64,000 bases of DNA from Dysidea avara (Eukaryota > Porifera > Demospongiae > Dictyoceratida > Dysideidae): contig NC_089278.1 of the NCBI RefSeq assembly GCF_963678975.1, positions 9,823,479 through 9,887,478 on the forward strand, written 5' to 3'. This document shows, piece after piece, positions 1 to 63,434 of this stretch. Made by a program: the position numbers and the translations under genes. Positions within the stretch are counted from its first letter, which is position 1, and every line of letters starts with the position of its first letter. Below the pieces are notes generated by a model. That model was not told where the DNA came from. It worked only from the letters and a program-made list of their open reading frames with translations, and did not search any database.

Positions 1-2950
1 CTTATGGCAATTTCACCATTGAACGTATTGGGTATGGTGGATCCTTGAATGTTGACGCAGAATATCACAATTGCTACTTGCCCACGATTTCTCCCATATC
101 TACTCCAACACCAACAAGTACATTTACTACTGTTTTTCCAACACCAATTCCAAATTTTGTTTGTAATGGAAGAGGGAATTTGTCAACTATTGAAGGATAT
201 GGTGATTTCAATCTGATATTTTCACACTACCCCAACTGTACCGGCAATGGATATTCTTCAACTTACCGTAACAATAGTTACTATTATCATTCTTCTAACG
301 GCAACTTTAGTTGCAGGGCTTATGGCAATTTCACCATTGAGCGCCTTGGAAATGGTGGATCTTTGACTGTGTATGCAGATTTTCACAATTGCTATTTGCC
401 CACGATGTCTCCCATATCTACTCCAACACCAACAAGTACATTTACTACTGTTTTTCCAACACCAGTTCCAAATTTTGTTTGTAATGGAAGAGGGAATTTG
501 TCAACTATTGAAGGATATGGTGATTTCAATCTGATATTTTCACACTACCCCAACTGTACCGGCAATGGATATTCTTCAACTTACCGTAACAATAGTTACT
601 ATTATCATTCTTCTAACGGCAACTTTAGTTGCAGGGCTTATGGCAATTTCACCATTGAACGTATTGGGTATGGTGGATCTTTGAATGTTGACGCAGAATA
701 TCACAATTGCTACTTGCCCACAATGTCTCCCATATCTACTCCAACACCAACAAGTACATTTACTACTGTTTTTCCAACACCAGTTCCAAATTTTGTTTGT
801 AATGGAAGAGGGAATTTGTCAACTGTTGAAGGATATGGTGATTTCAATCTGATATTTTCACACTACCCCAACTGTACCGGCAATGGATATTCTTCAACTT
901 ACCGTAACAATAGTTACTATTATCATTCTTCTAATGGCAACTTTAGTTGCAGGGCTTATGGCAATTTCACCATTGAACGCCTTGGAAACGGTGGATCTTT
1001 GACTGTGTTTGCAGATTTTCACAATTGCTATTTGCCCACGATGTCTCCCATATCTACTCCAATACCAACAAATACATTTGCTACTGTTTTTCCAACACCA
1101 ATTCCAAATTTTGTTTGTAATGGAAGAGGGAATTTGTCAACTATTGAAGGATATGGTGATTTCAATCTGATATTTTCACACTACCCCAACTGTACCGGCA
1201 ATGGATATTCTTCAACTTACCGTAACAATAGTTACTATTATCATTCTTCTAATGGCAACTTTAGTTGCAGGGCTTATGGCAATTTCACCATTGAACGTAT
1301 TGGGTATGGTGGATCCTTGAATGTTGACGCAGAATATCACAATTGCTACTTGCCCACGATTTCTCCCATATCTACTCCAACACCAACAAGTACATTTACT
1401 ACTGTTTTTCCAACACCAATTCCAAATTTTGTTTGTAATGGAAGAGGGAATTTGTCAACTATTGAAGGATATGGTGATTTCAATCTGATATTTTCACACT
1501 ACCCCAACTGTACCGGCAATGGATATTCTTCAACTTACCGTAACAATAGTTACTATTATCATTCTTCTAACGGCAACTTTAGTTGCAGGGCTTATGGCAA
1601 TTTCACCATTGAACGTATTGGGTATGGTGGATCTTTGAATGTTGACGCAGAATATCACAATTGCTACTTGCCCACAATGTCTCCCATATCTACTCCAACA
1701 CCAACAAGTACATTTACTACTGTTTTTCCAACACCAGTTCCAAATTTTGTTTGTAATGGAAGAGGGAATTTGTCAACTATTGAAGGATATGGTGATTTCA
1801 ATCTGATATTTTCACACTACCCCAACTGTACCGGCAATGGATATTCTTCAACTTACCGTAACAATAGTTACTATTATCATTCTTCTAACGGCAACTTTAG
1901 TTGCAGGGCTTATGGCAATTTCACCATTGAACGTATTGGGTATGGTGGATCTTTGAATGTTGACGCAGAATATCACAATTGCTACTTGCCCACAATGTCT
2001 CCCATATCTACTCCAACACCAACAAGTACATTTACTACTGTTTTTCCAACACCAGTTCCAAATTTTGTTTGTAATGGAAGAGGGAATTTGTCAACTGTTG
2101 AAGGATATGGTGATTTCAATCTGATATTTTCACACTACCCCAACTGTACTGGCAATGGATATTCTTCAACTTACCGTAACAATAGTTACTATTATCATTC
2201 TTCTAATGGCAACTTTAGTTGCAGGGCTTATGGCAATTTCACCATTGAACGCCTTGGAAACGGTGGATCTTTGACTGTGTTTGCAGATTTTCACAATTGC
2301 TATTTGCCCACGATGTCTCCCATATCTACTCCAATACCAACAAATACATTTGCTACTGTTTTTCCAACACCAATTCCAAATTTTGTTTGTAATGGAAGAG
2401 GGAATTTGTCAACTATTGAAGGATATGGTGATTTCAATCTGATATTTTCACACTACCCCAACTGTACCGGCAATGGATATTCTTCAACTTACCGTAACAA
2501 TAGTTACTATTATCATTCTTCCAACGGCAACTTTAGTTGCAGGGCTTATGGCAATTTCACCATTGAACGTATTGGGTATGGTGGATCTTTGAATGTTGAC
2601 GCAGAATATCACAATTGCTACTTGCCCACAATGTCTCCCATATCTACTCCAACACCAACAAGTACATTTACTACTGTTTTTCCAACACCAGTTCCAAATT
2701 TTGTTTGTAATGGAAGAGGGAATTTGTCAACTATTGAAGGATATGGTGATTTCAATCTGATATTTTCACACTATCCTAATTGTACTGGCAATGGGTACTC
2801 TTCATCTTATGGTAACAACAGTTATTATTATCACTCTTCTAATGGCAACTTTAGTTGCAGGGCTTATGGCAATTTCACCATTGAACATCTTGGAAATGGT
2901 GGATCTTTGAGTGTATATGCAGAGTATCACAATTGTTACTTGCCCACGAT
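1..2950 (+). repeat. In-frame tandem array, 318-bp unit, about 9.3 copies
   Basis: An anchor beginning cttatggcaatttcaccatt recurs at 1, 319, 637, 955, 1273, 1591, 1909, 2227, 2545 and 2863, exactly 318 bp (106 codons) apart. Copies differ at only a few sites. The last copy (2863) is diverged and runs into non-identical modules. Each unit contains two shorter Cys-bracketed half-repeats. The array continues beyond the left edge. Confidence 0.97.
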
Positions 2951-5900
2951 GTCCCCTACGCCAACTCCAATACCCAATTTTACTTGCAATGGTGGAAGTC
3001 GTAATATTACTATTTTAGGCTCCGGTTATTTTAGGCTGATGTTTGATGGTAACCCATCATGTGTTGGTGCTATTTCATCATTTAATGAATTTAGTTATAT
3101 CTTTGTAACAAATGGTTCATTTTTCTGTGATGGATTTGGTAATTTTACTGTTGAAAGAATTCAGCCTGGGGGAGTATTGAATGTAGATGCAGACTTCCAT
3201 AACTGCTTCTTTTCTGATACTGAAATTTCTTGTTTTGCTTCTGATCAATATGAAATTGTTGGAAATGGTGTCCTTAGTATTATCCCACAATTATCTAGAC
3301 CATTTGACTGCATCAGTGAATTGTTAATTAACAGTTCTGATTCTAATGCGCGTCTTCTTCTGGGTGAATTTATATGTTCAGGGAATGGCTTTGTTCAAAT
3401 AACGGGAATAGGTGATGTGTTTGTTAACAGCACTGGATACACTAACTGTACTGGCACTAATGTTCTAGTTGATGACACTCCTGTATCATGTAGTGGATCT
3501 GGAGTTTATCGTTTGTCTGGTATTGCCAATGCCACAATTGTGTCCTTGGATGAACTTACCTGTAGTGGTCAAGTAGCTTTACTCTCAGATCAAAGCAATG
3601 AAGCTAATATATTATACTATGTTGGTGGGTATTATATTTGTAATGGAAATGGTTTCTTTACCATAAGTGGATATGGATATGCTACTATTGATGTTGCTAA
3701 TGGAAGTCATACCTGTACAGGACCTCAACCAATTCTTTGTGCTACATTTAACATTGCTGAAAATGGTGGTATCTCTGTAGTAGGAGATGGAGAGTACACT
3801 ATTATTGGTGATGACAGTTTGTATTGTTATGGTAATGCTGTGTTGTGCCCAGGAGAAATCAACTACTACTTCACCAATGGACGTTTCTATTGTGCTGGTG
3901 ACCTCTTTGCTCATATTGATGGTGTAGGAGTTATTGAGAATATTACTGGCAACAACAATTGCAGTGGATTTGGATTTGCTGTCCCACCACCAATATTTTC
4001 AGGTACACCATTAACCCCACAACCAGTTTGTATTGGATATGGTAGTGCATACAGCATAAGGGGTACTGGACCTTTTAATACTAGTAGGCTTCTAGGAATG
4101 CTTAATTGTGATTCAACGCTTCAAGAGGTCACCTCAGATGTAGCTACTTACTTCAGTTACGAAGAGTCATTTTCTTGCAATGGTACTGGTATTTTCTTCT
4201 TTGAGGGTATGGGAAGTTCTGAAATAAATGTTGACAATGATGGGTTCTTTAATTGCATTGATGCTACACCTTTGGTGCCATTGTTTTGTGTTGGTGATGG
4301 TTTTGGTGTAGTTGAAGGGATTGGCAATTTCACTGTTGCTTCACGAAATGCTTCTTGTAGAAACAGAAACACAAATGCAGTTGCAGACAACTTATATATC
4401 AACGGATCAGTTGGAGATGTATTCTCCTGTCAGTTCAACTATCCATTTGAATTTGCAGGTACTGGAATAATTTTTAATATGATGGGTGCAGATTTCCAGT
4501 GTAATAATTCAAGACAATATTGTGAGGCTAGTGGTAATTTCACCTTCAATGCAACCGGCAACCTTTATATTCGCATTCGTACAGGTGGTAATATCATGTG
4601 TACTGATGAATCCAGTAACAGCCTGACATTTGAATCTAGCACTATAGACAACACTACATATATAAATGATGGCAGTGTCATGTGCAGTGGAAATGGTTTA
4701 CTAAGTATAAATGGTACAGGAATAATTTTGAGGAGGATGTCTGATGAGAGGTTTGCTTGCAATGCTGAATTGATTCCAACAACCACTACAGTTGCAACAG
4801 CTACTACTTCAATAGTCACTAGTACTCCAACACTGCAAACGGTTGCTGTAACAGCTACGGTAGTCCGAACAGTTAATACCGTCCCTACAGTTACAACTAC
4901 TCCAACACTTGCTACTGTAATAAGTGTAACTACAAACCCAACAGTTGTTACTGTACCAACCATTACTACAATTTCAACAGTCACACCAATGATTTCAATG
5001 GCCACTACTACAACTACTACCACTATTCCAACCCCAACAGTCACTACAACTACACTGGCTACTACAACAATAACTTCTACTACTACAAGTGTGTCAAGTG
5101 CTACCACCACCAGTGTGACAGCTTCTGTGACACCTGTTGAAACAGTAAGTGGTAACCGCTGATATCCAGTGTTATGTTGTGCATTCTGTTACAGCTAGTG
5201 AAGCTTGAGGATCTAACTCCAGCTCAAATTGAAAATGCTGTCACCTTATCATTTAGTGGATTTGACACGGTAACTTATGATTAATTAAGTAAACAGAAAT
5301 GGCAGACAGACATGCATATTTTGCCTTTTGCACTAGTTACTGGAACTATGAGCCACGTATTAGACATCATGTGGCAAAATACTTTAGGCTATTTATGTGA
5401 TGTGGTTGTTATCAAGCATGCTGCCACATGTAGGTGGATGAGTTCGATGAAGATGAATTTGCAAGTTTCATCCTGAGCTTGGTGGTGAATGTCAGGCAGC
5501 GTAGACAAATCTCATCTGATTTTGTTGTGGTATTTATTGACCCCACCCCCAGGATAAATAATGGATCACTTGAAGTTTCTTTTATTGTTATAAATTCCCA
5601 AGGAAGAGTGTTCAGTGGTATGGCCCTTTTATCAGAAATCCAAGACAGTGAAGATGACCTACTGAATGTTGTAAGTAACTGTTATATTTATTTATATAGT
5701 AACGCTTAATATCTATCAGCCATTTATTTGATAATACAGTGAAACCTCTCTTAACAAACTCCCCGAATTAAGGACACAATAGAAAAATCCTCCATAATAA
5801 GGACAAAAATTTTGGTTCCAACAGGTCTGGTTAGTACATTTTTTACCTCTGAAAGAGGAAAACCTCTATATTACAGCAAAAAATGGCCAAAACTTCTGGG

Positions 5901-8141
5901 TCCCAAAATGTCCATAATAGAGAGGTTCCACTGTATTCTGTTACAGTGGTTTTCCAGTTCGTTGTCACAAATGGAAATGCAATATGTGCATGTGCAATAA
6001 AAATTCAAACTGCTTGTAAAAATTTAGGCAGATAAAAATATCAGTAAACTAAAGGGACTCTTCTGTCATATTCGGTTGATTTAATGACTCACCCTCAGAT
6101 TATTAGTGTCTACTACGATATCTAGAACATATTTGCATAATGTGCAACATTGCTGGTGAGCATGCACGAAGTTTATTTTTGACAACGGACCAGAAAATTA
6201 CTGTAACCAGTCAACCAAAATACAGACACATGTATTAACAAAAGGTATTTATTGTTATTTCAATACTTGCACAATGTTGAAGTGCCATTTTCAAATGCAG
6301 AAAACTATTATACGGATTGCAGTTTTCCAGCTTTTACAAGCTCACCTGTAACAAGACTTATTATTGCATGAGGCTCATTGAAAGTGTATATGGGGACATA
6401 ATTAATCAATGTTATAATGACTACAATTCTCGTACTGTTGAGACCACTCTGAGAATGTAAGCTAGGTGAACTTCCATGCAGGAGTGTTGCCTCAATTACA
6501 GAAATCCCACACTAGAGGTTTGTTCTATCACAATAGGCTACAGACAAAAGCTATGAAGATGACAAAGCTAACAGCACATATATTAGATTTAGACAAAATA
6601 TGCTTCTTGGACTGCTTGTATAAGGTCTCTATCCTTCTACTTTCCCTCCAAATTTTTCTATGTGCATACAGCGAAACTGGCATACATTGACTTACCATGA
6701 ACAAATGAACAAATCCAAATAAATGTGGCCAGGCCACCCAACTGATCTAGTTTAACCTGATTACCATCATGACACTACATTACTGTATCTTCTATCTGTA
6801 AGTCCTTGCTTACAAGTTCCAGATTACTGTCTTCAGAGTTCCATAATATAAGAAATTCCTACTATTTTTGTTTTACCATGTGCATTATGTACTAGAAGAC
6901 CAAACTAATTATTTGACCGGAGCTTCTGCATCATAGGCTCCTGGTCATTGCAAGCATGTGTATTGTTCATTGCTGAATCATCCCACAGTTAGTTTTATGG
7001 GAACCCTCACTGCAAGATTGCTTGTTAACAATGTATCAAGCACCTGAAATATTGTTTCACTTGACAGTGTTACCACATTAGGGCTACTGTTGATTGCTAA
7101 GGGATAAATACAGTAATGTAACTGGCTAGTCTTGTGTGGCTACGCCTTTGTTTACTCAATTTGAAGTTATAAGCACTCATGCTTATAATCTCTAATCAAT
7201 AAACCCTGGCGTTGTGAAGCTCAACTTGTTTCGGTTGCTGCTGCCACTTTTTAATATCATTCATGTACCTGTAGAATAGTGTAGTGAGGGCTTATAAAGC
7301 ACTGATTTGGTGGCTTGCAAATTCCTGAGTGCATGTTGTACATTGCTGCACAGTAATGCAATGCTCATATTTCTGAAGTTGTTTCTAATCACCATACAGC
7401 ATATACCATGTACCAAATGCCAACTTACATCTTTTTTAAAAGTGGACCCTAGACTGAGACAAAAACATCACTGATATTGAGGCCATTTTTGTCACTCTAG
7501 TTGGACTACTGATCTCAACAATGATGATGTAACTCTCAGTATTGGTACATGTGTTCTGTTGTACCATATTTATTATAAACAACATTTTTAATTTGACTAA
7601 TGTGGCAACTGTAATGATTGTTCTATTAGAGAATTATGGTGATTGTGATAAGATACATGTGCACATATTACTATATCTACAGGTTGGGGCAGACAGTTTG
7701 GTGGATATAACTGGAGGACTATCAGAGGATTTAGAACAATTGCGAAATGATATTATTAGTACTCCAACACCTACCCCTGGAGACAACGAGGATGATGATG
7801 ATGATGAGTTGAGTGGAGGAATCATAGCATTGATTGTGATACTTGTGGTGCTCACTGTGATAGTACTAGTTGCAGTTATTGTTGGTCTTCTTGTGTACAG
7901 AAGCAAAAATACTGCAAAATTTGAAATCAAGGGATCTGTGAAACAACGTGTGTATGGCAGCACCGATTACATTTCAAACAGAACAGCTGTGAATATTTCT
8001 TACGTCAGTAAACAAGAATTACAGGCCAGCAATATACAAGAGATGGCATCTAATGAGCCTGAGCCATATAAAACAGAAACAGGTGACTCTTTGGTGAAGC
8101 AAAATCTCGGTGCGAATGATGATATAGACACACATTTATAA
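1..8141 (+). CDS. Giant Cys-module repeat surface protein, 3' part (5' end outside window)
   Basis: I do not recognise the family. Four coding exons are visible: 1-5144, 5195-5269, 5434-5670 and 7683-8141, all joined in phase 0. The frame is already open at the left edge. Exon one carries 106-residue near-identical repeats (to about 2950), then 14 degenerate modules of the same type (to about 4770), then a Thr/Ser/Pro/Val mucin-like stalk (4770-5144). Each module is bracketed by cysteines with glycines and N-glycosylation sequons between (C-x-G-x-G, I-x-G-x-G, then N-C-x-G). The next two exons and the start of the last form a roughly 115-residue domain resembling SEA-type membrane-proximal domains. 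A membrane segment lies at 7821-7898, followed by an approximately 80-residue cytoplasmic tail ending D-T-H-L, a class I PDZ-ligand pattern. Role in adhesion, surface coat or self-recognition is only inference. Confidence 0.85.
5737..5933. mobile_element. Short pogo/Tigger-like MITE in intron, TA target duplication
   Basis: A 197-bp element begins cagtgaaacctctctta and ends with the approximate inverse complement agagaggttccactg. It is flanked by TA on each side, as expected of Tc1/mariner-pogo type transposons. It lies in the last intron of the giant repeat gene and has no coding capacity. The rest of that 2-kb intron shows no exon I can support. Confidence 0.65.
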
Positions 8142-19400: not shown

Positions 19401-22400
19401 TGGCTGACTAAAAGAAATATTAGAACTACTGTAAACTCTTAAATTTCAAGAGGGACAAAGCCCTCTGACTTCCTTATAATAAACCCTGAAACAAATAACT
19501 TTAATTGTCACTTCTATATTGACAGGCATGGTACCTAGTAGTGATGTTACAGCAGGTGATGATAATGAGAGAGAGAATCAGGTTTCCAAGCAAACAGTGT
19601 TTCCAGAAATCCCATCCCTTAATACTCCTGTTGATGTGAATTCTGACAAGACAGTAGACAGTACAACTGGTCATGCTGCATCACAATATAGTGCTTCAGT
19701 CACTTCTGTACCATCTCTAGCTTCCTCTTGTTCTCACACAGATGACGACACGTTTGTTTCACGTGATCGTGCAACTTCTGATTCAGAAAACTCAATTGCT
19801 GCAGTGTGTGTGTCTTTTGCTAACATTCCTGTGTCTGTGCAGGCTCCATTCACCTTTATGGCTGCTCCACATTCTCATCTGTGTCCTGTTTCAGTAGACT
19901 CCAGTCTATTTTCTTTACCAGCAAGCACAGTTTCGACTTCTGCCCACAACTCTAATATTACTGCCAATATTAGTTCTCCACTTGCAGCTCCCACAACTGA
20001 TCTGAAGATTAGTGTTACAACAGAGGAATTTGATCCCTTCTCAGTTGTATGTTCTTCGTCTAGTTTGGTTACGCAGGCCAGCTCTGCTTTCAGTACAATT
20101 GCTATCATGCAAAGTACAACTGTGCCAAATAGTATTTCATTGCCAGTTGTTGCCAGTGTAGCTAAAGCTTTGCCATCAGAATATACTCTGTCACATTCAG
20201 GCAATGTCACAAAGACATGTACTGCTGTTTGGACTCCAATCACCACATCTAGTCAAGGTTCTGCCATGCAAACTACTTGTGCAGTTTCAACTGTGGCAAA
20301 TACATCATCCACTATCAAAACGACACCACCTAAAAAGGCTAGCAGCAGAAAAACTAAAACGACATCATCAGCATCTTCAGCAGTTGTCACAATAAAATCA
20401 AGTAAGTTACAGTTTACTCACTACCACAATGTTTCAGTGATAACAGTGCTGTCAGCACCAATTGTAAGCATTTACTTATTACAAAGGTTGCTACTGCAGC
20501 TTTACTTATTTCTTCAGGTCACCGATCAACCAACAATGCTACAATTGGTTACATATTTGATCTCAAACAAGGTGACGAGTTGGAGTGTGTCATTACAGAG
20601 GTCGTGAGTCCCTCGGAGTTTTGGGTACAACCAGTTGGGTATGAGCTAATCAGCCTGATGAACAGTATGGGGTGAGCTAATAGACTTTGTATAGGGGTTA
20701 GTATGATGGATGTGTGTTATAAAGGTCTTACTATAAGTGGCTTGAAAAGGATGGTGATTATGGTGGTCTCAAGGAACCACCAAGGGTTGGGGATTTCTGT
20801 TGTGCCCGATTTTCTCAGGACATGAGATGGTACCGGGCTAGAGTACTGTCATTCATTCATGGTGAGCTTTATGGTAGTCAGAATGATAATCTGTTATGTT
20901 TGTTACAGATAGGGTGGAGGTTTTGTATGTTGACTATGGCAATAAGGAAGAAGTCCCTTTGTCTTCTTTACGTCCACTTGATTACCGATTTGTCATCTTG
21001 CCCTGCCAGGCAATAAAGTGTAGTTTGAAAGTCAGACCTGCAGTTGAGATTTCTGCACCTATGTTGAAGGATTCAGTTGTCAATATTCCACTATGGCCCA
21101 AGCATACAAAGAAATGGTTAAAAAGTTTATTGATGGGGAAGCATGCTACGGTGTTGTTTCTGACAACTGCAACTAGCAACCATGCTCAAGTTGACATTGC
21201 TGTTACCAGAGAAAATTTTCTATCATCGCTCTCATGTCTACATGGTGTTCTTTCCATTGGTGAAGGAATCAAGCAGTTCTTACAATCAACTCAGCTTAGT
21301 CCACTCTATGCATTGTGTGGTGTTTCAAAGTTTATGTGTGCAGTGAAGTTGGCAGTTGCAAATGGTGAGAAACCTTTGTCCAACAAGACTACTGTGATGC
21401 CGTTTTCTGCAAGCCATTCCTTTTCTGGTTCCTCTGTCTTTCCTTTTCCAACACCGACACCTTCTGGTTCTGTATTTCTGCGTCAGTTTCCCACTATGCC
21501 GCAGTATTCATTGTTTCCTTTCATGGTACATCCAAACCCTCCACAACCACTATTTTCACCTGGGTTTATTCAACCAGTCGTTTCTCCCCCTCCATCTTCT
21601 AGCTTTGAATTTGTTGACACTATTGAGCGACGTTGTCAATCAGAAAATAATGACGATTCCCGGAACTGTCAGACTCCTAAGAAACGATCGGCTTCTCTCA
21701 CAGCAGCAGCTGCTTTGACTCTTTCAGATTTCTCAGATGATGTACAACAACTTGGTAGTAATAAAACAAAAGTTAAAAAGTTGTCCAGTTCAGAAGGGAA
21801 GTCGTCAACTGAGCGTATTTCTCCTCCATCAGGGACACATGTCACTAGTGAGCTAGATACTGAATTATCAGACCAGTCTTTGTTGATACCTTCGCTGTCA
21901 TCAGAGCATAGCAATTCAAACTTGAGTAGTTCTACAATATCAATAGATGTCACAACCCTATCACAGGTTGCAACAGCAGTGCCCACATCAACTACTTCTC
22001 CACTACTATCATCTAGAAACAGTTCTATTTCAAGTGTGCCAACTACTAGTGAATCACCGAAAGCAGATAACAGTACAGTAACATTTAGCTCACCTTCTGT
22101 AGCTGTGATGGAGTCGCATCACTCGTCTCCTACTACTGTTGTGAGCATACATGCTTCCCCCAAGTTCCACAACATAGCCGCACTGCCGATATTATCCAGT
22201 GTGATTTCTGATGAATGCCATGACCATAATGTGATTATTTCTCATGTTGTTAGCCCTTCAGAATTTTACCTCAACTTTTTATCAGATGTTGAAGAGATTA
22301 AACCTTTTGATTCCTTTCAGAAGTTACTAAATGAACATTATTTGCTTAATGAAGAAAAAGAAGCAGGTGATGATTTGAGTACACTTTTGTCTGTGGGACT

Positions 22401-24563
22401 CATTTGTTGTGCAAAGTTCACCGATGGTACATGGAACAGAGCAATAGTCCGTGACATTAAACCGAAAGAAAGTAGCGACAGCGTAAACAAATATTTAATT
22501 CAGTATGTTGACTTCGGAAATTACCAGTGGGTAGCTGTTAAAGACATTCAACCTCTTAAGGAAGAATTCCTCTCCCAGCCTGCTCTTACTGTCCGCTGTA
22601 CTCTGGTTGGTGTTGTTCCATGTAATGATAGAAGGCAGCGGCGGAAGAAAACAAGATTGTCATCAAAGGTGCTGATGACTGCTGCTGGAGCTGAAGATGA
22701 TTTCCTAGAAGAATGTGATGACCTGTCCACTACAGACAGACAACAGTTTTCGGAGCCAACCAGAAAGACGGAAGATGGTGAAGCATGGTCTCAAGAAGCT
22801 TTGGATTGGTTTACTCAGCTGACAGGCAAGATGTTGGTTGCTACACTGACCGAGGAAGGTACAAAATATCTACACCTTGTTATTGTGACTATACACTTTT
22901 ATTACAAGTTATGATGCTGAGCTGGGATGACTCCTTACAAGTAAAACTGATTGACACAAATGGATCCATTGATGTTAGCATTGCAGAAGACTTGGTGTCT
23001 AAGGGACTTGCTAAGTACAATGCCAAAAAGATGCCAGCAAGCAAAGGCAACAGCAGTGAGAGTATGTGTACTACCGAAGCCCTACTGTATGCACTGTACA
23101 AGTATGATTAGAGTGTCATATAATACTGAAGCAATTGAATGTATTCTGTGTAATATGATATGCTTGTTTTATAGGTACCGAAATTCCACACCTAGATCAA
23201 GTTAACCCAGTTAATGAGCTGTCACCATCTGCTGTGTTACATGCTGATAACACTTCAACCCCCAAGGTTGATTCTGATACACTGTCAAGTCCTACTGAGG
23301 TTGTCATGGATGCCTGGAATCCAATGGAAAGCCATTTCCTGTCTAACTGGAATCTCTATCAGAACACTGGTGACCATACATCAGCTGGCAGAGGTATTGC
23401 TACAATGGTAACTAAAAGTAATGAAAGTATTATATTCACTTATTATTGTAGGATCTTTGTTTAGAACAAGAGGGGGAAAACAAGGTTCGTAAGATGATAT
23501 GCTCTCTCTGAATTGAAATCTTTCCGTCTGCAGAGGCTGGTTTTAGTGACGGTACAGCAATATCTAAGTCATGGAAAATGCAGACGGTCCCATTGCCAGC
23601 TGAGAATACTTGTGTTCCAGTAGTAATCACAGGCATTTATAGCCCTGTGAGGTTCTGGGTTCAACTGTTTCCTTCCATTACCAACCCTGGTATGTGTGTG
23701 CGTAGTGTACATGTACTCAATATCTATATACAGATGAGGTCGATGATAGGAATGTTTGTGGAATAACTTTGAGTCAACTTTGTGAGGAGATGAAGTAAGC
23801 TGTCTGTCCTTGCCATTATGTTATTCAAACTGTTTCAATGTTAGCAAGGAATGTTCTCGGTCTGTGTTCAAGGGAAGAGAATCAGATATCATTGCTCATG
23901 GTGAACTAGTAGCTGCCATGTCGCCTGAAGATAGATGTTGGTATAGAGCAGTACTGAAGGACTATGATGATAATACTAATAGTGTTTTGGTGGGTTCACT
24001 CTATCATACTTCACTGTTATTTTTTACAACATATCAGGTAGCATTTGTTGATTTCGGTGACACAGCATGGATTAAAGAGACCAACATACGCCGTCTACAT
24101 TCAAAGTTCTTACATTTACCCATTCAAGCAGTGGAATGCACACTTGATGGAATGAAGCTTAATGAAGATGTGGACTTTAATTGGGCAATGTTAGTGGATT
24201 CACTGAATATATTTATAGTACTACTCAGAAATGGTTTCCTGATATCATAAGGTTTCAATTCAACTATTGTTGCTGTAGGGAAGAAGTTTTGGAGATGGTG
24301 AAGGACAAAGCATTTGCAGCTCATATTATAGAAAGGTAGGTCTTCGTAATTATTTTGTTTATCTAACTGTGGTCTCTGCTGATAGGGACACGGTCGGCAA
24401 CAGGCTATCATTGGATCTGTATGAAGCCAGCAGTATTGGTATTTCAGTGAATCTCAAAGATGAAATGGTTACCAGAGAGATTGCACTACGAAATACCACG
24501 AAGAATTCTGTTAGTAACTCAATTCCTGGTAGGTACCAGAAAGCCTCTTCACTTCCTGGCTAA
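16465..24563 (+). CDS. Coiled-coil, three-Tudor-domain protein (RNF17/TDRD-like)
   Basis: Fourteen exons join in frame to a protein of 1580 residues: 16465-16752, 18474-18690, 19526-20401, 20518-20671, 20725-20861, 20909-22858, 22909-23061, 23175-23393, 23534-23689, 23734-23794, 23845-23989, 24038-24189, 24279-24335 and 24386-24563. Residues 1-165 are charged coiled coil like that following B-boxes in TRIM proteins. A Ser/Thr-rich linker follows. Three extended Tudor domains show the hallmark strings V-S-P-S-E-F-W-V (exon 4), Y-V-D-Y-G-N (exon 6), V-S-P-S-E-F-Y-L with Y-V-D-F-G-N (exon 6), and F-V-D-F-G-D (exon 12). Such proteins bind dimethylarginine on Piwi-type proteins in germ granules. 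No RING or B-box is seen upstream; a TGA precedes the chosen ATG by three bases, so either the protein lacks a RING or an upstream exon splices in. Confidence 0.85.
17053..17090. repeat. (TTAC)n microsatellite
   Basis: About nine units of cttactta lie in the first intron of the Tudor gene. No further exon is seen between 16752 and 18474. Confidence 0.85.
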
Positions 24564-25517: not shown

Positions 25518-26271
25518 TTAAGTATCAATTACATGGTCAAGATTTGATAATCGTACCAGGCAGACTTCAATTGACTTACTACCTCTAGACTGATGCTTGT
25601 ATACATGTCCATTTAATCTGTAGTCTATCATTTCAACGACATCCAATTTTACACCCCATTCCTTGCAGTTCTTCTCAATATAATGCAACGTTGCTGCCTT
25701 GTGGAGAGAATAAACAGTTTCTTGCCACCTTGCAAGCAATTTTAAGAAAGTCTATATCAGTCGCTTGATGTACATTGTCATCCAGTCGTACCACATTAGC
25801 CATCCCTTTCTGTTTGTGCTTGTATTTGTAGTGTTGAATTTTTATGTCCTTGACACCCGTCTTAGTGCCAAACGGCGGGTTCATGATTACCGTATCGAAC
25901 CGTTTGGTGAGAGTATTAGTATTCAATGATGATATGTCGCACGTGATCACATCTACTGTGTCCTGAAGTTCAAAAATGTCAGAGATGTTTTCTGCTGCGC
26001 ACTGGACCGCGTCTGCATCGATTTCGAACCCTAATACAAAATCGGCTCCCATCAACGCACAGCCTATACTCAGCATACCAGTCCCACAGCCAAGATCGGC
26101 CACCATCTTCCCATTAATATCACCTTCAATACGCAACAGTATCTCTGCTGTAAGATCTGGCGGAGTCATGTACTGCTCAAAACTAACGACAGGTTTTGTA
26201 AAGTCAAGAACCTTAGACAATTCACTCTCCAATCGCTTCTTACTGAATTTCTTTCGTCTCGCACAAGCCAT
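25518..26271 (-). CDS. METTL5: METTL5-like rRNA adenine N6-methyltransferase, frame interrupted
   Basis: METTL5 with TRMT112 methylates one adenosine of 18S rRNA. From the ATG at 26271 the protein shows the family N-terminus, an AdoMet-binding motif (A-D-L-G-C-G-T-G), an acidic loop and the catalytic N-P-P-F motif. The C-terminal part (V-Y-S-L-H-K and later K-S-I-E-V) lies in another frame. Frames switch near 25717-25722; one base fewer in the short A run of 'agaaact' on the coding strand would join them. Just after N-P-P-F-G-T-K there are 93 extra bases (25764-25856) with GT and AG ends and no stop; they could be a small in-frame intron, because removal gives the usual spacing to the next conserved block. 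The frame change may be a sequencing error or a real lesion. An earlier in-frame start exists but lacks family similarity. Confidence 0.8.
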
Positions 26272-26397
26272 GGAGGTCATATATTCTAATTCTTTAATTT
26301 GTTCAAAAGTAATTCTGTACATATAGATATAGCATGCACACAAAACAAGTCCCAAGTATACAGTGTGTGTTGTAATGTGTTGGCAGTTTAAATACTT

Positions 26398-56746: not shown

Positions 56747-58372
56747 TCAATCTGTCACAGTTATTTTCCAGCCCAAATGGATGTGTGTGCCACATTGATA
56801 GTACACTAAATTTGGTGTGTTTCTTGTTGGTCTCCAGGTATACATTGTTGCCCCATCAGGACACTTCGGTTTTCTACGTCTACGAGTACAACATCTCTTG
56901 ATGTCATCATAATTGTGATAAACAAGTGGACCAGTAAACAAAGCATTGTTATTTTCATCTACTCCAGCAAACACCGTCTCATTGATACCCATCCCAGCAA
57001 ATAGTTTTTGAAAATATCCCCCTTCTGGACTATCAGTGATGTACAGTGGATGATAGTTTGAAGGATCAGCAGAGTCATTACCACCTAGAACACAGAAGGT
57101 GTATCTCTTTCCTCGTTTTACTGTAAGATGTGGAACAAGACATCCATCTACATACCAAGCAATTCCCCAGCTAAAAGTTAAATTAGTGAGTGCTTCATAG
57201 CCACACGGTTCTCCAGTTTCACCAATGGTAAATACAAATCGACGACGTTTTCCAACTTTGTTTCTTCTGTTTCTACATGGCTCACAGGGAGGTGGTGGGG
57301 TGGTTGGTGGCATTGTTGGTGGAGTACCATCAACACGATAACGATCTCTACAACAATCCTGGGTAAATGCTTTATCACACTCATCTGCACCTGTGCCGTT
57401 CGCAAAATCAACAAAAACATGGGGAACAGCATGAAACCCTGTTGGGTGTCGAAATATAATTCCTTGGTTAACAGGTCCCATAGCCCATACCACCGCCTGT
57501 GGATCAGTTAAAATGATATTATTATCATGATCAGGGTTTGGGCTCTGCAGGGGTCTTGTATAAGTACACCAAAAAACTCCATCTAGTTCTCCTCCACTAG
57601 TCATGGCAAGATTATCAACTCCACCATTGTATCTTGTGTCCATACACACTCCCGACACCATTTCCTGTGATGCACCACACTGAGCATAAGCTGAAATGTA
57701 GTAATCTTGGACTGTCCATTTTCCATCGCCATCTCTCCAGCACAGGGTAGGGTCAGCATTTAACATGGATGTAACAGATGGAGATTTGCTAATTCCAAAT
57801 CCCATAAAATAGTTATCAGGACGGTTATTCGAACACAGTGTTATCTCAGCATTTGCTGCAGTACTGTTGACACTCCAGCACACATCGTAGCCTTCTCTGA
57901 GGTTCTGACAGTACACTTTTCGCTCGCAAATCTTCTGGGTTTGCTTCCTGATGTTACCAAACGTTATGTGTCCAAAATTTGCAGTGACGCTTTTACACCA
58001 AATTGACAGCCAGTTTATTTCATTGATACCATACGAGTCCGGTAATTTTAGGTGTATCGTTTGATTGTCATAGGTAATCCCTCGAACAAACTGCAAAAAC
58101 GTTCGATCTCCATGCATCACCGTAGCATCTACACCAACTGAGCTAGCGTCAGGACCGGTTTGTGGATTGTTGCCAAGATAAGCAAATACCGCAGGGCCAA
58201 GTCCATCGTAGTAGAAGTTATCGATCACTAAATGGTTGCAGGAAATGGCGTAGACCTTTCCACTGACGTCGTGAGCGAGTCTACTAAGTTCTCCCAGGAA
58301 CTCTCGTCCCTCTGAGAGTGCAAATAGAACTAGCACAAGAACAAAGCGCATTACAGCTAACTCGCTCAACAA
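56747..58372 (-). CDS. Secreted DM13-DOMON-cupredoxin-like protein, Skeletor/Knickkopf type, copy A
   Basis: A single intronless frame of 541 residues. A signal peptide follows the second methionine (M-R-F-V-L-V-L-V-L-F-A-L-S-E-G). Residues about 25-130 form a DM13 domain (G-K-V-Y-A-I-S-C, L-V-I-D-N-F-Y-Y-D-G, ending W-L-S-I-W-C with F-G-H-I-T-F). A DOMON-like domain follows to about residue 330, holding W-R-D-G-D-G-K-W and C-M-D-T-R-Y-N-G. A Pro-rich hinge and basic stretch (R-R-N-K-V-G-K-R-R-R) lead to a plastocyanin-like C-terminal domain (N-Y-H-P-L-Y-I-T, L-V-Y-Y-Q-C-x-T-H). In insects this order occurs in Skeletor and Knickkopf, which organise cuticle and chitin; DOMON domains bind haem or sugars. 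Here an extracellular-matrix role is likely but unproven. The start could be either ATG in the first eight codons. Confidence 0.85.
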   Translation of the reverse strand: MLSELAVMRFVLVLVLFALSEGREFLGELSRLAHDVSGKVYAISCNHLVIDNFYYDGLGPAVFAYLGNNPQTGPDASSVGVDATVMHGDRTFLQFVRGITYDNQTIHLKLPDSYGINEINWLSIWCKSVTANFGHITFGNIRKQTQKICERKVYCQNLREGYDVCWSVNSTAANAEITLCSNNRPDNYFMGFGISKSPSVTSMLNADPTLCWRDGDGKWTVQDYYISAYAQCGASQEMVSGVCMDTRYNGGVDNLAMTSGGELDGVFWCTYTRPLQSPNPDHDNNIILTDPQAVVWAMGPVNQGIIFRHPTGFHAVPHVFVDFANGTGADECDKAFTQDCCRDRYRVDGTPPTMPPTTPPPPCEPCRNRRNKVGKRRRFVFTIGETGEPCGYEALTNLTFSWGIAWYVDGCLVPHLTVKRGKRYTFCVLGGNDSADPSNYHPLYITDSPEGGYFQKLFAGMGINETVFAGVDENNNALFTGPLVYHNYDDIKRCCTRRRRKPKCPDGATMYTWRPTRNTPNLVYYQCGTHIHLGWKITVTD

Positions 58373-58466: not shown

Positions 58467-60105
58467 ATAGATTTATTATTTTTATTTATTTATTATCAAT
58501 TTTTCCAAAGAAGGGTTCCACAAAAGGCTAGTTAGCCTGTACTAGATGGTCCCCAACACAGAACATACATACATATACACATACAGAGCATACATACATA
58601 CTAGTCTCGCGCAGCCAGACCACTATTTCTTCCCACGGCGCTTATCGATTAGAGATTAAAAGCGCCTGCTCGCTATTTCGAGCAGGCGCTTATAATCTCT
58701 AATCGATAAGCGCCGTGGGAAGAAATAGTGGTCTGGCTGCGCGAGACTACATACATACATACATACACAGAACATACATACATATACACTCAAAACAAAT
58801 TACAAATAAGAAATGATATAGCTATTTACAAAACAGAAAATGTTTAAGCTTATGCTTAAAACTGCCTGCAGTTGGCTGTGACAAAATTGTTGGAGGTAAG
58901 AAGTTCCATAGAAATAGCACAGCCACAAAGAATGAGTGCCTAAATGCGTTGATCGTAGAATACACAAGGTTTAAAGTTAAGGAATGAGATCTAGTAGATA
59001 GTGTGTTAAATTGAAAATATTTAGAGAAATCAATGGCTGTTCTCTTATGGAAGATGGAATACAGAGTCCAAATAGATATATAGTCACGATGTGCTTTGAG
59101 TGAGGGCCATCCCAGTTCATTGACACAAATAATTGAAGATTTGGACCATTTATTAGTAGATGAATCCCAAAAACTTTTGATCCAGCGTGCAGCCCTATGT
59201 TGTACAGACTCCAGTAAACTAATATCTTGAGCCGCGTATGGAGACCATATGGCACAAGCGTACTCTAAATGAGGTCTAACTAGAGCTTTGTAGGCACAAA
59301 TTTTAGCAGCTTGTGTACAACCAAACATAGCACGACGTATACGATTCAGACACTTGGTAGCCTTACTGACAACATATTGACAATGATCATTCCACTTAAG
59401 TTTCGAGTTAATAATAACACCAAGATACTTCACCTTCTGGGACCACGAGATTGTATGGGATCCAATGGAGTAGGCAAAAGTGATAGGAGAGCGCTTATTG
59501 CTGATGTTAACAGCTTCACACTTTTTTGGGTTTAGCTTAGGGTGCCACTTAAGAGACCAAACATGGACACGTATTAGATCATTCTGTAACTTGAGACAAT
59601 CTTCATAACATGACACCTGAAGATAAAGGGAGAGATCGTCAGCAAAATATTTGATAGACGAATCCTCAACAACATGTCTAATATCATCAATATATAAAAT
59701 GAACAGAAGCGGGCCCAAAATGGAACCCTGAGGAACGCCAGAGGCTACAGGAAGCCATTTAGAGAACTGCCCATTTACAACAACTCGCTGAGATTTTGTA
59801 GTTAGAAAACATTTAGTCCAGTCAAGTAATTCACCAGAAACACCCAAGGACTGCAGTTTCAACAAAAGCCGATGGTGAGGCACACTGTCAAACGCCTTTG
59901 CAAAATCAAGGAATAAACAGTGAATACTGTCACGGCCCTCCAATGCTTTGGTCCAATCATGTACAGCCTCAAGTAAGAGGTGAGTAGCTGAGTGATTCTT
60001 ACGGAAGCCAAATTGGTGAGTGCTAATTAAATTATGAGACTCTAATACCACAGTTAGCTCAGAATGTATAATACGTTCCATAGTTTTGATAACAACTGAT
60101 GTTAA
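58467..60105 (-). mobile_element. 5'-truncated non-LTR retrotransposon (LINE) with reverse transcriptase
   Basis: An intact frame of 419 residues (58822-60081) holds reverse transcriptase motifs: H-Q-F-G-F-R-K-x-H-S, L-D-F-A-K-A-F-D-S-V, S-G-V-P-Q-G-S-x-L-G-P and the catalytic F-A-D-D. It ends with the usual W-N-x-L-P tail. The N-terminal endonuclease is missing. On the minus strand the 3' UTR runs to a (AATA)n tail at about 58467-58500, as in CR1/jockey-like LINEs. A foldback element sits in the 3' UTR. The 5' end abuts the (AAT)n tail of another LINE fragment. The frame has no stops, so insertion is probably recent. Confidence 0.85.
58602..58749. mobile_element. 148-bp foldback element (near-perfect hairpin)
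   Basis: The arm starting tagtctcgcgcagccagacc is repeated as its inverse complement ending at 58749. Arms are about 70 bp with one mismatch and a loop of about six bases (ctattt). It lies inside a (TACA)n tract (58563-58780) in the LINE 3' UTR. A diverged relative of the inner arm ('cttataatctctaatc') occurs near 7186. Confidence 0.85.
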
Positions 60106-61826: not shown

Positions 61827-63434
61827 TCAATTTCTCACAGATATTTTCCATCCCAAAAAGAAGTGTGTAGCACATTGATAGTACACCAAATCTGGAGTGT
61901 CTCTTGTTGGTCTCCAGGTATACATTGTTGCCCCATCAGGACATACTGTCTTCTTACGTGTACAACATCTCTTGACGTCATCATCATCATGATAAACAAG
62001 GGGACCAGTAAACAAAGCATTGTCATTTTCATCTATTCCAGCATACACAGTCTCGTTCATATTCCGATTCTGAAAATATCCCCCTACTGGACTGCTGGTG
62101 ATGTATAGTGGATGATAGTTTGAAGGGTCAGCAGAGTTGTTACCGCCTTGAACACAGAAGGTGTATTTCCTTCCTCGCCTTACCCTTAAGTGTGGAATAA
62201 GACATCCGTCTACATACCACGCAATGCCCCAGCCACCAGTTGAATTTGCAAGTGCTTCATAGCCACACCTTCCCTCAGATGAACCAATGGTAAACACAAA
62301 TCGACGACGTCTTCCAACTTTGTTTCTTCTGTTTCTACACGGCTTACAGGGGGGTGGTGGGGTGGTTGGTAGTGGTGGAGGCCCAGTAATACGATAGCGA
62401 TCTTTGCAACATTCCTGGGTTGATAATTTATCACACTCGTCTGCACCTGTGCCATCACCAAAATCAACTAAAACATTGGGAATGGCACGAAACCCTACTG
62501 GGTGTCGAAGAATCACTCCTTGGTTAACAGGTCCCATAGCCCATACCACTGCTTGTGGACCAGTTAAAGTGATATTGTTATCATGATCAGGGTTTGAGCT
62601 CTGCAGGGGTCTTGTATAAGTACACCAAAAAACTCCATCTAGTTCTCCTCCACTAGTCATGGCAAGATTATCAACTCCACCATTGTATCTCGTGTCCATA
62701 CAAACTCCCAACACCGTTCCTTGTGATGCACCACACTGAGCATAAGCTGAAATGTAATAATCTTGGACCGTCCATTTTCCATCGCCATCTCTCCAGCACA
62801 GGGTAGGATCAGCATTAAACATGGATGTAACAGTTGGAGATTTACTAATTCCAAATCCCATAAAATAGTTATCAAGGCGGTTGTTAGAACACAGTGTTAT
62901 CTCAGCACTTGCTGGCGTTCCTGTGGTGTTATTGATGCTCCAGCACACATCATAGCCATCTCTGAGATTCTGACAATGCACTGGCTTGCGCGCACAAATC
63001 TTCTGGGTTTGCTGTCTGATGTTCCCAAAAGTTATGTGGCCGAAATTCGCACTGAATGATCTACACCAAATGGATAACCAGTTTGCTTCGTTGATATTGT
63101 ATGAATCTGGGAGCTTTATTTGTATCACTGTATTGGTGTGCCTACTACGAGGAAACCGTACGAACGTTTGGCTCCCAAACGTCACTGTAGCATCTACACC
63201 TCCAGAATTACGATCAGGGCCATTCGAGGGATTCTTTCCAACAAACGCATATACCGCAGGGCCAAATCCATCGTAGTAGAAGTTTTCGATCACCAACTCG
63301 CTGCAAGAGATCGCGTAGACGTTCCCGCGGACTTCATGTTGACGTTCAGTTAGCCTTCCCAGAAACTCTCGCCCCTCCGAGAGAGCAAACACAACTGCAA
63401 GTAGGGCAACAAAGCGCATCCCAACTATGCTCAT
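61827..63434 (-). CDS. Secreted DM13-DOMON-cupredoxin-like protein, Skeletor/Knickkopf type, copy B
   Basis: An intronless frame of 535 residues and close paralogue of 56747-58372, in the same orientation with the same order: signal peptide (M-R-F-V-A-L-L-A-V-V-F-A-L-S-E-G), DM13, DOMON-like, Pro-rich hinge with R-R-N-K-V-G-R-R-R-R, and plastocyanin-like domain. Long blocks are identical, including the C-M-D-T-R-Y-N-G region and the W-R-D-G-D-G-K-W block. The N-terminal DM13 and the C-terminus differ more, and the hinge is shorter. Both frames are intact, so both copies are probably functional. The pair arose by tandem duplication; transposons later filled the gap. Confidence 0.85.
   Translation of the reverse strand: MSIVGMRFVALLAVVFALSEGREFLGRLTERQHEVRGNVYAISCSELVIENFYYDGFGPAVYAFVGKNPSNGPDRNSGGVDATVTFGSQTFVRFPRSRHTNTVIQIKLPDSYNINEANWLSIWCRSFSANFGHITFGNIRQQTQKICARKPVHCQNLRDGYDVCWSINNTTGTPASAEITLCSNNRLDNYFMGFGISKSPTVTSMFNADPTLCWRDGDGKWTVQDYYISAYAQCGASQGTVLGVCMDTRYNGGVDNLAMTSGGELDGVFWCTYTRPLQSSNPDHDNNITLTGPQAVVWAMGPVNQGVILRHPVGFRAIPNVLVDFGDGTGADECDKLSTQECCKDRYRITGPPPLPTTPPPPCKPCRNRRNKVGRRRRFVFTIGSSEGRCGYEALANSTGGWGIAWYVDGCLIPHLRVRRGRKYTFCVQGGNNSADPSNYHPLYITSSPVGGYFQNRNMNETVYAGIDENDNALFTGPLVYHDDDDVKRCCTRKKTVCPDGATMYTWRPTRDTPDLVYYQCATHFFLGWKISVRN

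Follow-up and report, generated by a model that had tools for sequence, protein, structure and literature searches.

Introduction

SEA-domain membrane mucins of the MUC1 and MUC16 type are type I proteins in which a signal peptide and a long tandem-repeat ectodomain are followed by a Ser/Thr-rich stalk, a juxtamembrane Gly-Ser motif, a single span and a short tail; their repeats consist of Ser, Thr and Pro. Silk-type structural repeat proteins are made of homogenised arrays of lysine-poor repeats. Intermicrovillar protocadherins and tip-link cadherins combine a giant repeat ectodomain with a PDZ-binding C-terminus, and a SEA-like membrane-proximal domain has been described for protocadherin-15 and cadherin-23 (PMC6586460). 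In dystroglycan a mucin-like region, a Gly-Ser site and a single span occur together, and dystroglycan-like (DG-like) proteins are reported from sponges (PMC4582122). Here we analyse a stretch of 64,000 nucleotides from the sponge Dysidea avara (contig NC_089278.1, in the following C7; C7:9823479-9887478, “the window”), at the start of which lies the 3' part of a gene, p3, that resembles each of these systems in part. We propose that p3 probably encodes a giant single-pass type I surface glycoprotein for a coat or for adhesion and is one of three tandem paralogues (p1, p2 and p3).

The p3 product is predicted to have the listed features of the membrane mucins, including a candidate Gly-Ser motif, but its repeats are mostly predicted two-cysteine beta modules instead of Ser/Thr/Pro repeats, and a SEA domain is not detected by Pfam. 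With dystroglycan it would share the mucin-like region, the putative Gly-Ser site and the single span, whereas the DAG1 profile stays below its cut-off and no other dystroglycan domain appeared in Pfam scans. The giant repeat ectodomain recalls the protocadherins and tip-link cadherins, but cadherin repeats were not found and a common role is conjecture. Homogenised, lysine-poor arrays are shared with silk-type proteins, from which p3 differs by a predicted membrane anchor, putative Cys pairs and many sequons. A description of this gene family was not found in the titles and abstract beginnings of the open-licence literature among the matches listed.

Gene structure and paralogues

One forward reading frame of the window is free of stop codons from 3 to 5162, and Tandem Repeats Finder (TRF) reports 9.3 copies of a 318-bp unit at 1-2953, each unit coding for two modules (A and B). 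According to a module profile, the in-window portion of exon 1 contains 33 two-Cys modules, 19 in the array and 14 diverged ones behind it (T1-T14), and nothing else in the 64 kb exceeds the inclusion threshold. Open frame, repeat unit and profile confirm the original prediction of a giant protein of repeated two-Cys modules. Its number of about 33 holds for the window and covers only about half of the whole gene, because the gene is truncated by the window edge. The true start of exon 1, with a Met and a signal peptide, lies 5,914 bases upstream of the window at C7:9817565, and the full product has 3942 amino acids and about 70 modules.

The count of 33 is partly circular because the profile was trained on those modules. 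In a leave-one-out test with 200 Cys-fixed shuffles for each of the 14 tail modules, 11 scored above all of their shuffles, sometimes by a narrow margin (T8, 10.3 versus 9.0 bits). A profile built from tail modules only recovered the 19 array modules. In the opposite direction the signal was weaker. With a profile restricted to A and B modules, four stretches of the tail scored over 5 bits, compared with at most one in a shuffled tail, and only T2 (39.4 bits) exceeded the best shuffled sequence (12.2 bits).

The introns at 5145-5194, 5270-5433 and 5671-7682 are all GT-AG and in phase 0, and the stop codon is found at 8139-8141. Of 112 frame-compatible splice combinations this one was preferred for the fit of its splice sites, and it is consistent with the gene structure of the paralogues. 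The start codons, and a few splice sites in the paralogues, were set by eye.

The genome (550,814,596 bases in 108 contigs) was searched exon by exon, with only the best candidates being scored. Both paralogues precede p3 in the same orientation: p1 at C7:9737439-9759408 (6397 amino acids, first exon of 6145 codons) and p2 at C7:9787501-9800497 (1531 amino acids). The three genes form a tandem cluster with a common phase-0 exon plan and have in common a head of about four modules (delimited by eye), the diverged tail modules, a stalk of ~807 (p1), 146 (p2) or 124 (p3) amino acids, two juxtamembrane exons (25-26 codons and 79 codons), a single membrane span and a Thr-His-Leu (THL) end. In p1 and p3 the module array between head and tail modules is long and homogenised. 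Module matches above 3 bits number 108 in p1, 22 in p2 and 70 in p3; a broader profile gave 108, 23 and 69 above 5 bits. No further family gene was found in the genome with the repeat unit, the C-terminal exon, the juxtamembrane domain, the head together with the p2 middle, or the tail as queries. The C-terminal exon retrieved weak membrane-span matches elsewhere (best E 3e-5), and the juxtamembrane domain a single match at E 9.7. A lone degenerate B module lacking its first Cys, perhaps a relic, is located on the reverse strand at C7:7531503-7531727, ~2 Mb from the cluster. The collections viral_contigs and genome_contigs contained no relatives; they are viral and prokaryotic, so that absence there is uninformative about other animals.

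Selection and array turnover

The ratio of nonsynonymous to synonymous divergence (dN/dS) is 0.21-0.51 in 13 pairwise comparisons of the paralogues over five regions, p1 being left out for the T10-T14 region. The p1-p3 values for the head (dS 1.20, dN 0.25) and the juxtamembrane domain (dS 1.31, dN 0.39) show long constraint on both. Taken together, these ratios support the view that the paralogues are genes under purifying selection and would code for real proteins. They bear on the possibility that the array is a satellite-like sequence or an assembly artefact and the frame not a functional gene. Near-identical tandem repeats and a frame read from genomic sequence would fit such an origin. 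However, the three gene models contain no internal stop in 11,870 codons, and the non-repetitive tail, juxtamembrane and membrane exons are conserved in frame in all three paralogues at the dN/dS given above, which makes an artefact hardly credible.

In T9-T10, p1 and p2 are nearly identical at synonymous sites (proportion of differences, pS, 0.00-0.04), while each differs from p3 by 0.48-0.64. This near-identity is best read as a gene-conversion tract, and the genes would then be mosaics. The p3 array comprises 24 full units with a mean nucleotide identity of 0.957; units two apart are more similar (0.968) than neighbours (0.951), and the variable codons include 26 amino-acid-changing and 25 silent ones. 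Unequal exchange and gene conversion could rapidly alter the length and the sequence of the array, which may let rod length and surface chemistry vary under continued constraint on the head, the juxtamembrane domain and the tail. Array turnover, the T9-T10 tract, the three-gene tandem cluster and an Asp-Tyr-Ile/Val motif kept in the three tails would also suit receptors for self/non-self or microbe recognition, in which fast-changing arrays and conversion give individual-specific surfaces and the tail signals. We consider such receptors unlikely, since dN/dS is below 1 in all 13 comparisons and, in the one assembly searched, only three genes were found, no large repertoire.

Modules and their predicted structure

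The pattern C-x-G-x-G...I-x-G-x-G...N-C-x-G, originally ascribed to every repeat module, fits the A-type and most tail modules. “Every” was too strong because the B modules deviate, reading CRAYG...ERIGYGG...HNCYLP. Inside the modules of the window the two Cys are 23-29 residues apart. Both are present in all 108 scored modules of p1, in 69 of 70 in p3 and in 18 of 22 in p2; outside scored modules there are 11 (p1), 4 (p3) and 11 (p2) Cys, those of the signal peptides counted. Column statistics of 35 non-redundant modules reveal an alternation in which every second place is hydrophobic, Cys or Gly with mostly polar residues between. The class autocorrelation of the same modules has z-scores of 10.1 at lag 8, a value overstated because the modules are related, and −9.0 at lag 4.

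AlphaFold2 predictions used alignments of nine window rows for the pair T5-T6 and five rows for T3-T6. The best of five pair models had a predicted local distance difference test score (pLDDT) of 82.9 and a predicted template modelling score (pTM) of 0.72 (pLDDT of the others 80.5, 77.3, 76.4 and 63.2); it consists of six strands (4-9, 12-25, 29-39, 47-60, 63-75, 80-83) and no helix. The four-module model reached pLDDT 66.2 and pTM 0.52 (others 65.3, 60.2, 45.8 and 29.6), its first two modules having a strand pattern that resembles the pair model. Both models are all-beta, in agreement with the short beta units anticipated before, and the module is predicted to be a small unit of antiparallel beta structure that advances in 8-residue steps of hydrophobic-x-hydrophobic/Cys-x-Gly-x-Gly-x. 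The solenoid that had been suggested was not borne out by the four-module model.

The earlier remark that no named domain is known to have this module pattern agrees with our searches, in which Pfam, NCBIfam, PHROGs and the PDB sequences yielded no credible module match and Foldseek returned no match at E 0.001 or better for PDB or BFVD (best 50 of each). The best BFVD match (E 0.0075, template modelling (TM) score 0.29, root mean square deviation 12.1) was rejected as a fold match. Also discarded were the NCBIfam histidinol-phosphatase model (E 0.0036, 17 bits versus a cut-off of 280), phrog_6060, whose E of 0.0048 is spread over two stretches and not credible, and the DnaJ zinc-finger (E 1.1), which merely reflects CxGxG.

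Alternatively, the modules might have diverged from a known domain, for example from the GIN/DUF2807 domain (PF10988) of bacterial adhesin-like proteins or from an immunoglobulin (Ig)-like fold. PF10988 was matched at E 0.0068, but with 16.6 bits it stays under the cut-off of 24.2, no single stretch passes alone, and one of 35 modules was matched at E 0.1 when they were searched module by module. No GIN match occurred in 832 amino acids of p2 and 853 of p1, and the fixed Cys pair of the modules is not known as a property of GIN. With the 35-module profile, nanobody sequences of the PDB reached E values as low as 0.00025, and the pair profile matched an antibody chain at E 0.026; the nanobody score, however, is a sum of short pieces, the best of which has an E of its own of 8.9 among the alignments listed. 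Ig superfamily domains carry two Cys ~55-75 residues apart in a sandwich, far from the module spacing, and no Ig family obtained a credible score in Pfam scans. Neither structure model had a PDB match at E 0.001 or better in the Foldseek search. We regard a diverged known domain as very improbable.

Juxtamembrane domain and cytoplasmic tail

Hydropathy and composition bear out the mucin-like stalk, membrane span and short tail described earlier; signal peptide, Ser/Thr stalk, one span and short tail suggest a type I mucin-like topology. The domain in between is encoded by three exons. Its earlier label SEA-like, after a domain with a ferredoxin-like fold, was not borne out. PF01390 did not match the three paralogue domains in Pfam at E up to 10, none of them had a PDB match by sequence, and an exon-by-exon search of the genome with PF01390 gave nothing over the cut-off and three weak matches, none at this locus; 14 control genomes were likewise without a positive. 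The label is argued for only by our reading of the layout, by the Gly-Ser of NGSLEV, which resembles a SEA autoproteolysis site, and by RxRR, which we assign to the furin-type motif class and which would presumably be cleaved. The domain is at most a putative SEA domain and may work like one. Around the membrane span DAG1 reached E 0.022-0.036 (13.9-14.6 bits, cut-off 23.3). DUF4690, the best Pfam match there (E 0.005), was below its cut-off and was rejected.

Kept in all three paralogues are RxRR, SxEPEP(Y/F)K, DY(I/V) in the cytoplasmic tails and the THL end, which presumably represents a class I PDZ ligand. THL ends and very long ectodomains would be expected of links or a mesh between the microvilli of choanocyte collars, comparable to harmonin-binding intermicrovillar protocadherins with their giant ectodomain and PDZ-binding tail. 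According to PMC4942974, intermicrovillar links occur in sponge collars, harmonin is choanocyte-enriched, and the linker cadherins of vertebrates lack an obvious sponge orthologue. A choanocyte linkage is thus testable. The same source, however, proposes four choanocyte cadherins for that role, and the case made here comes from sequence; we hold it to be quite unlikely.

Lysine depletion and sequons

The exon-1 ectodomains contain 3 Lys in 6120 residues (p1), 1 in 1242 (p2) and 0 in 3661 (p3), compared with ~184, 34 and 109 predicted from codon-position composition; pooled, there are 4 in 11,023 residues versus ~327 expected. Arrays inflate such raw counts, but 44 non-redundant modules (1319 residues) likewise contain 2 Lys, with 43 Arg. 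Two other secreted-looking proteins of the window have 18 Lys in 541 and 15 in 535 amino acids. Trp is almost missing from the ectodomains as well (0 in p1, 0 in p2, 1 in p3). The frame has 67 sequons in its first 1590 residues, where shuffling gives a mean of 33.7. In p2, whose sequence is the least repetitive of the three, the count is 32, with a mean of 15.5 and a maximum of 29 in 1000 shuffles. The dense sequons noted before are thus about twice the shuffled expectation, while the heavy glycosylation drawn from them is an inference.

Proposed function

With some confidence we favour a giant single-pass type I surface glycoprotein. The two Cys of each module would pair as a disulphide staple, and serial modules would give a long stiff rod, covered with N-glycans and raised on an O-glycosylated stalk. 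Near the membrane the protein might be cut and yet held together, like membrane mucins, Notch and dystroglycan. It could form an extended coat on the cell surface or act as an adhesive tether, with a PDZ scaffold as its anchor inside the cell.

Several points weigh against this proposal. The coat or adhesive role is deduced from architecture, and the disulphide partners from Cys counts. Only one Cys is present in 4 of 22 scored modules of p2 and 1 of 70 of p3, and three of the 14 tail modules failed the leave-one-out test (1, 11 and 4 shuffles scored as high as T3, T7 and T12, respectively, or higher). Packing into a rod or solenoid is unsupported because the four-module model is weak. The SEA assignment has no statistical support in profile searches, and p1 lacks the Gly-Ser site, having NGVLEV where p2 and p3 have NGSLEV. 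In p2 and p3 neither AATAAA nor ATTAAA occurs within 700 bases of the stop codon, while p1 has two such signals. A bolder version of the proposal seems rather unlikely: a new disulphide-stapled octad-strand beta fold would stack into a continuous lysine-free rod, and the three-gene cluster would be a lineage-specific surface system that diversifies in rod length and sequence by array exchange and gene conversion and serves collar-cell linkage or individual recognition.

Feature coordinates and neighbouring genes

Table 1. Features of p3 within the window (window positions; C7, contig coordinates)
Feature	Position	Strand	Remarks
Exon 1, portion within window	1..5144	+	first in-frame codon at base 3; splice donor GTAAGT at 5145; true start upstream, C7:9817565
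Homogenised A-B array, units of 106 amino acids / 318 bp	3..2948	+	19 modules in window, first one cut
Diverged tail modules T1-T14 (n=14)	2976..4772	+	
Mucin-like stalk, ~124 amino acids, 44% Thr	4773..5144	+	
Exon 2 (phase 0; 25 codons), first part of juxtamembrane domain	5195..5269	+	paralogue exons C7:9755927-9756004, 9791354-9791428
Exon 3 (phase 0; 79 codons), juxtamembrane core	5434..5670	+	equal length in 3/3 paralogues
Furin-type motif RQRR (presumed)	5494..5505	+	RRRR in both paralogues
Gly-Ser of NGSLEV, resembles SEA autoproteolysis site	5563..5568	+	GS in p2 too, GV in p1
Exon 4: end of juxtamembrane domain, acidic stretch, membrane span, cytoplasmic tail, stop	7683..8141	+	
Membrane span, hydropathy peak 3.68	7818..7895	+	
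C-terminal Thr-His-Leu	8130..8138	+	kept in 3/3 paralogues

Elsewhere in the window, the reverse strand encodes at 56747-58372 and 61827-63434 two secreted-looking proteins that are related to each other and have DM13, DOMON and At5g54830-like domains. An open reading frame resembling a LINE-type reverse transcriptase (assigned by eye) is placed between the two DOMON genes at 58822-60081 (reverse strand). A Tudor-domain protein with two Tudor stretches is encoded at 20896-22914 (forward strand), and the open reading frame at 25675-26355 (reverse strand) has a small-methyltransferase (MTS) domain.

Conclusions

Little is known about the surface coats, the collar links and the self-recognition proteins of animals that branched off early. 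In this field a family of three genes at a single locus, with a clean repeat, a module unrecognised by the libraries searched and ectodomains of up to 6000 residues almost devoid of lysine, offers a tractable target. The depletion of lysine, if general, would indicate a selective pressure on exposed surface fibres.

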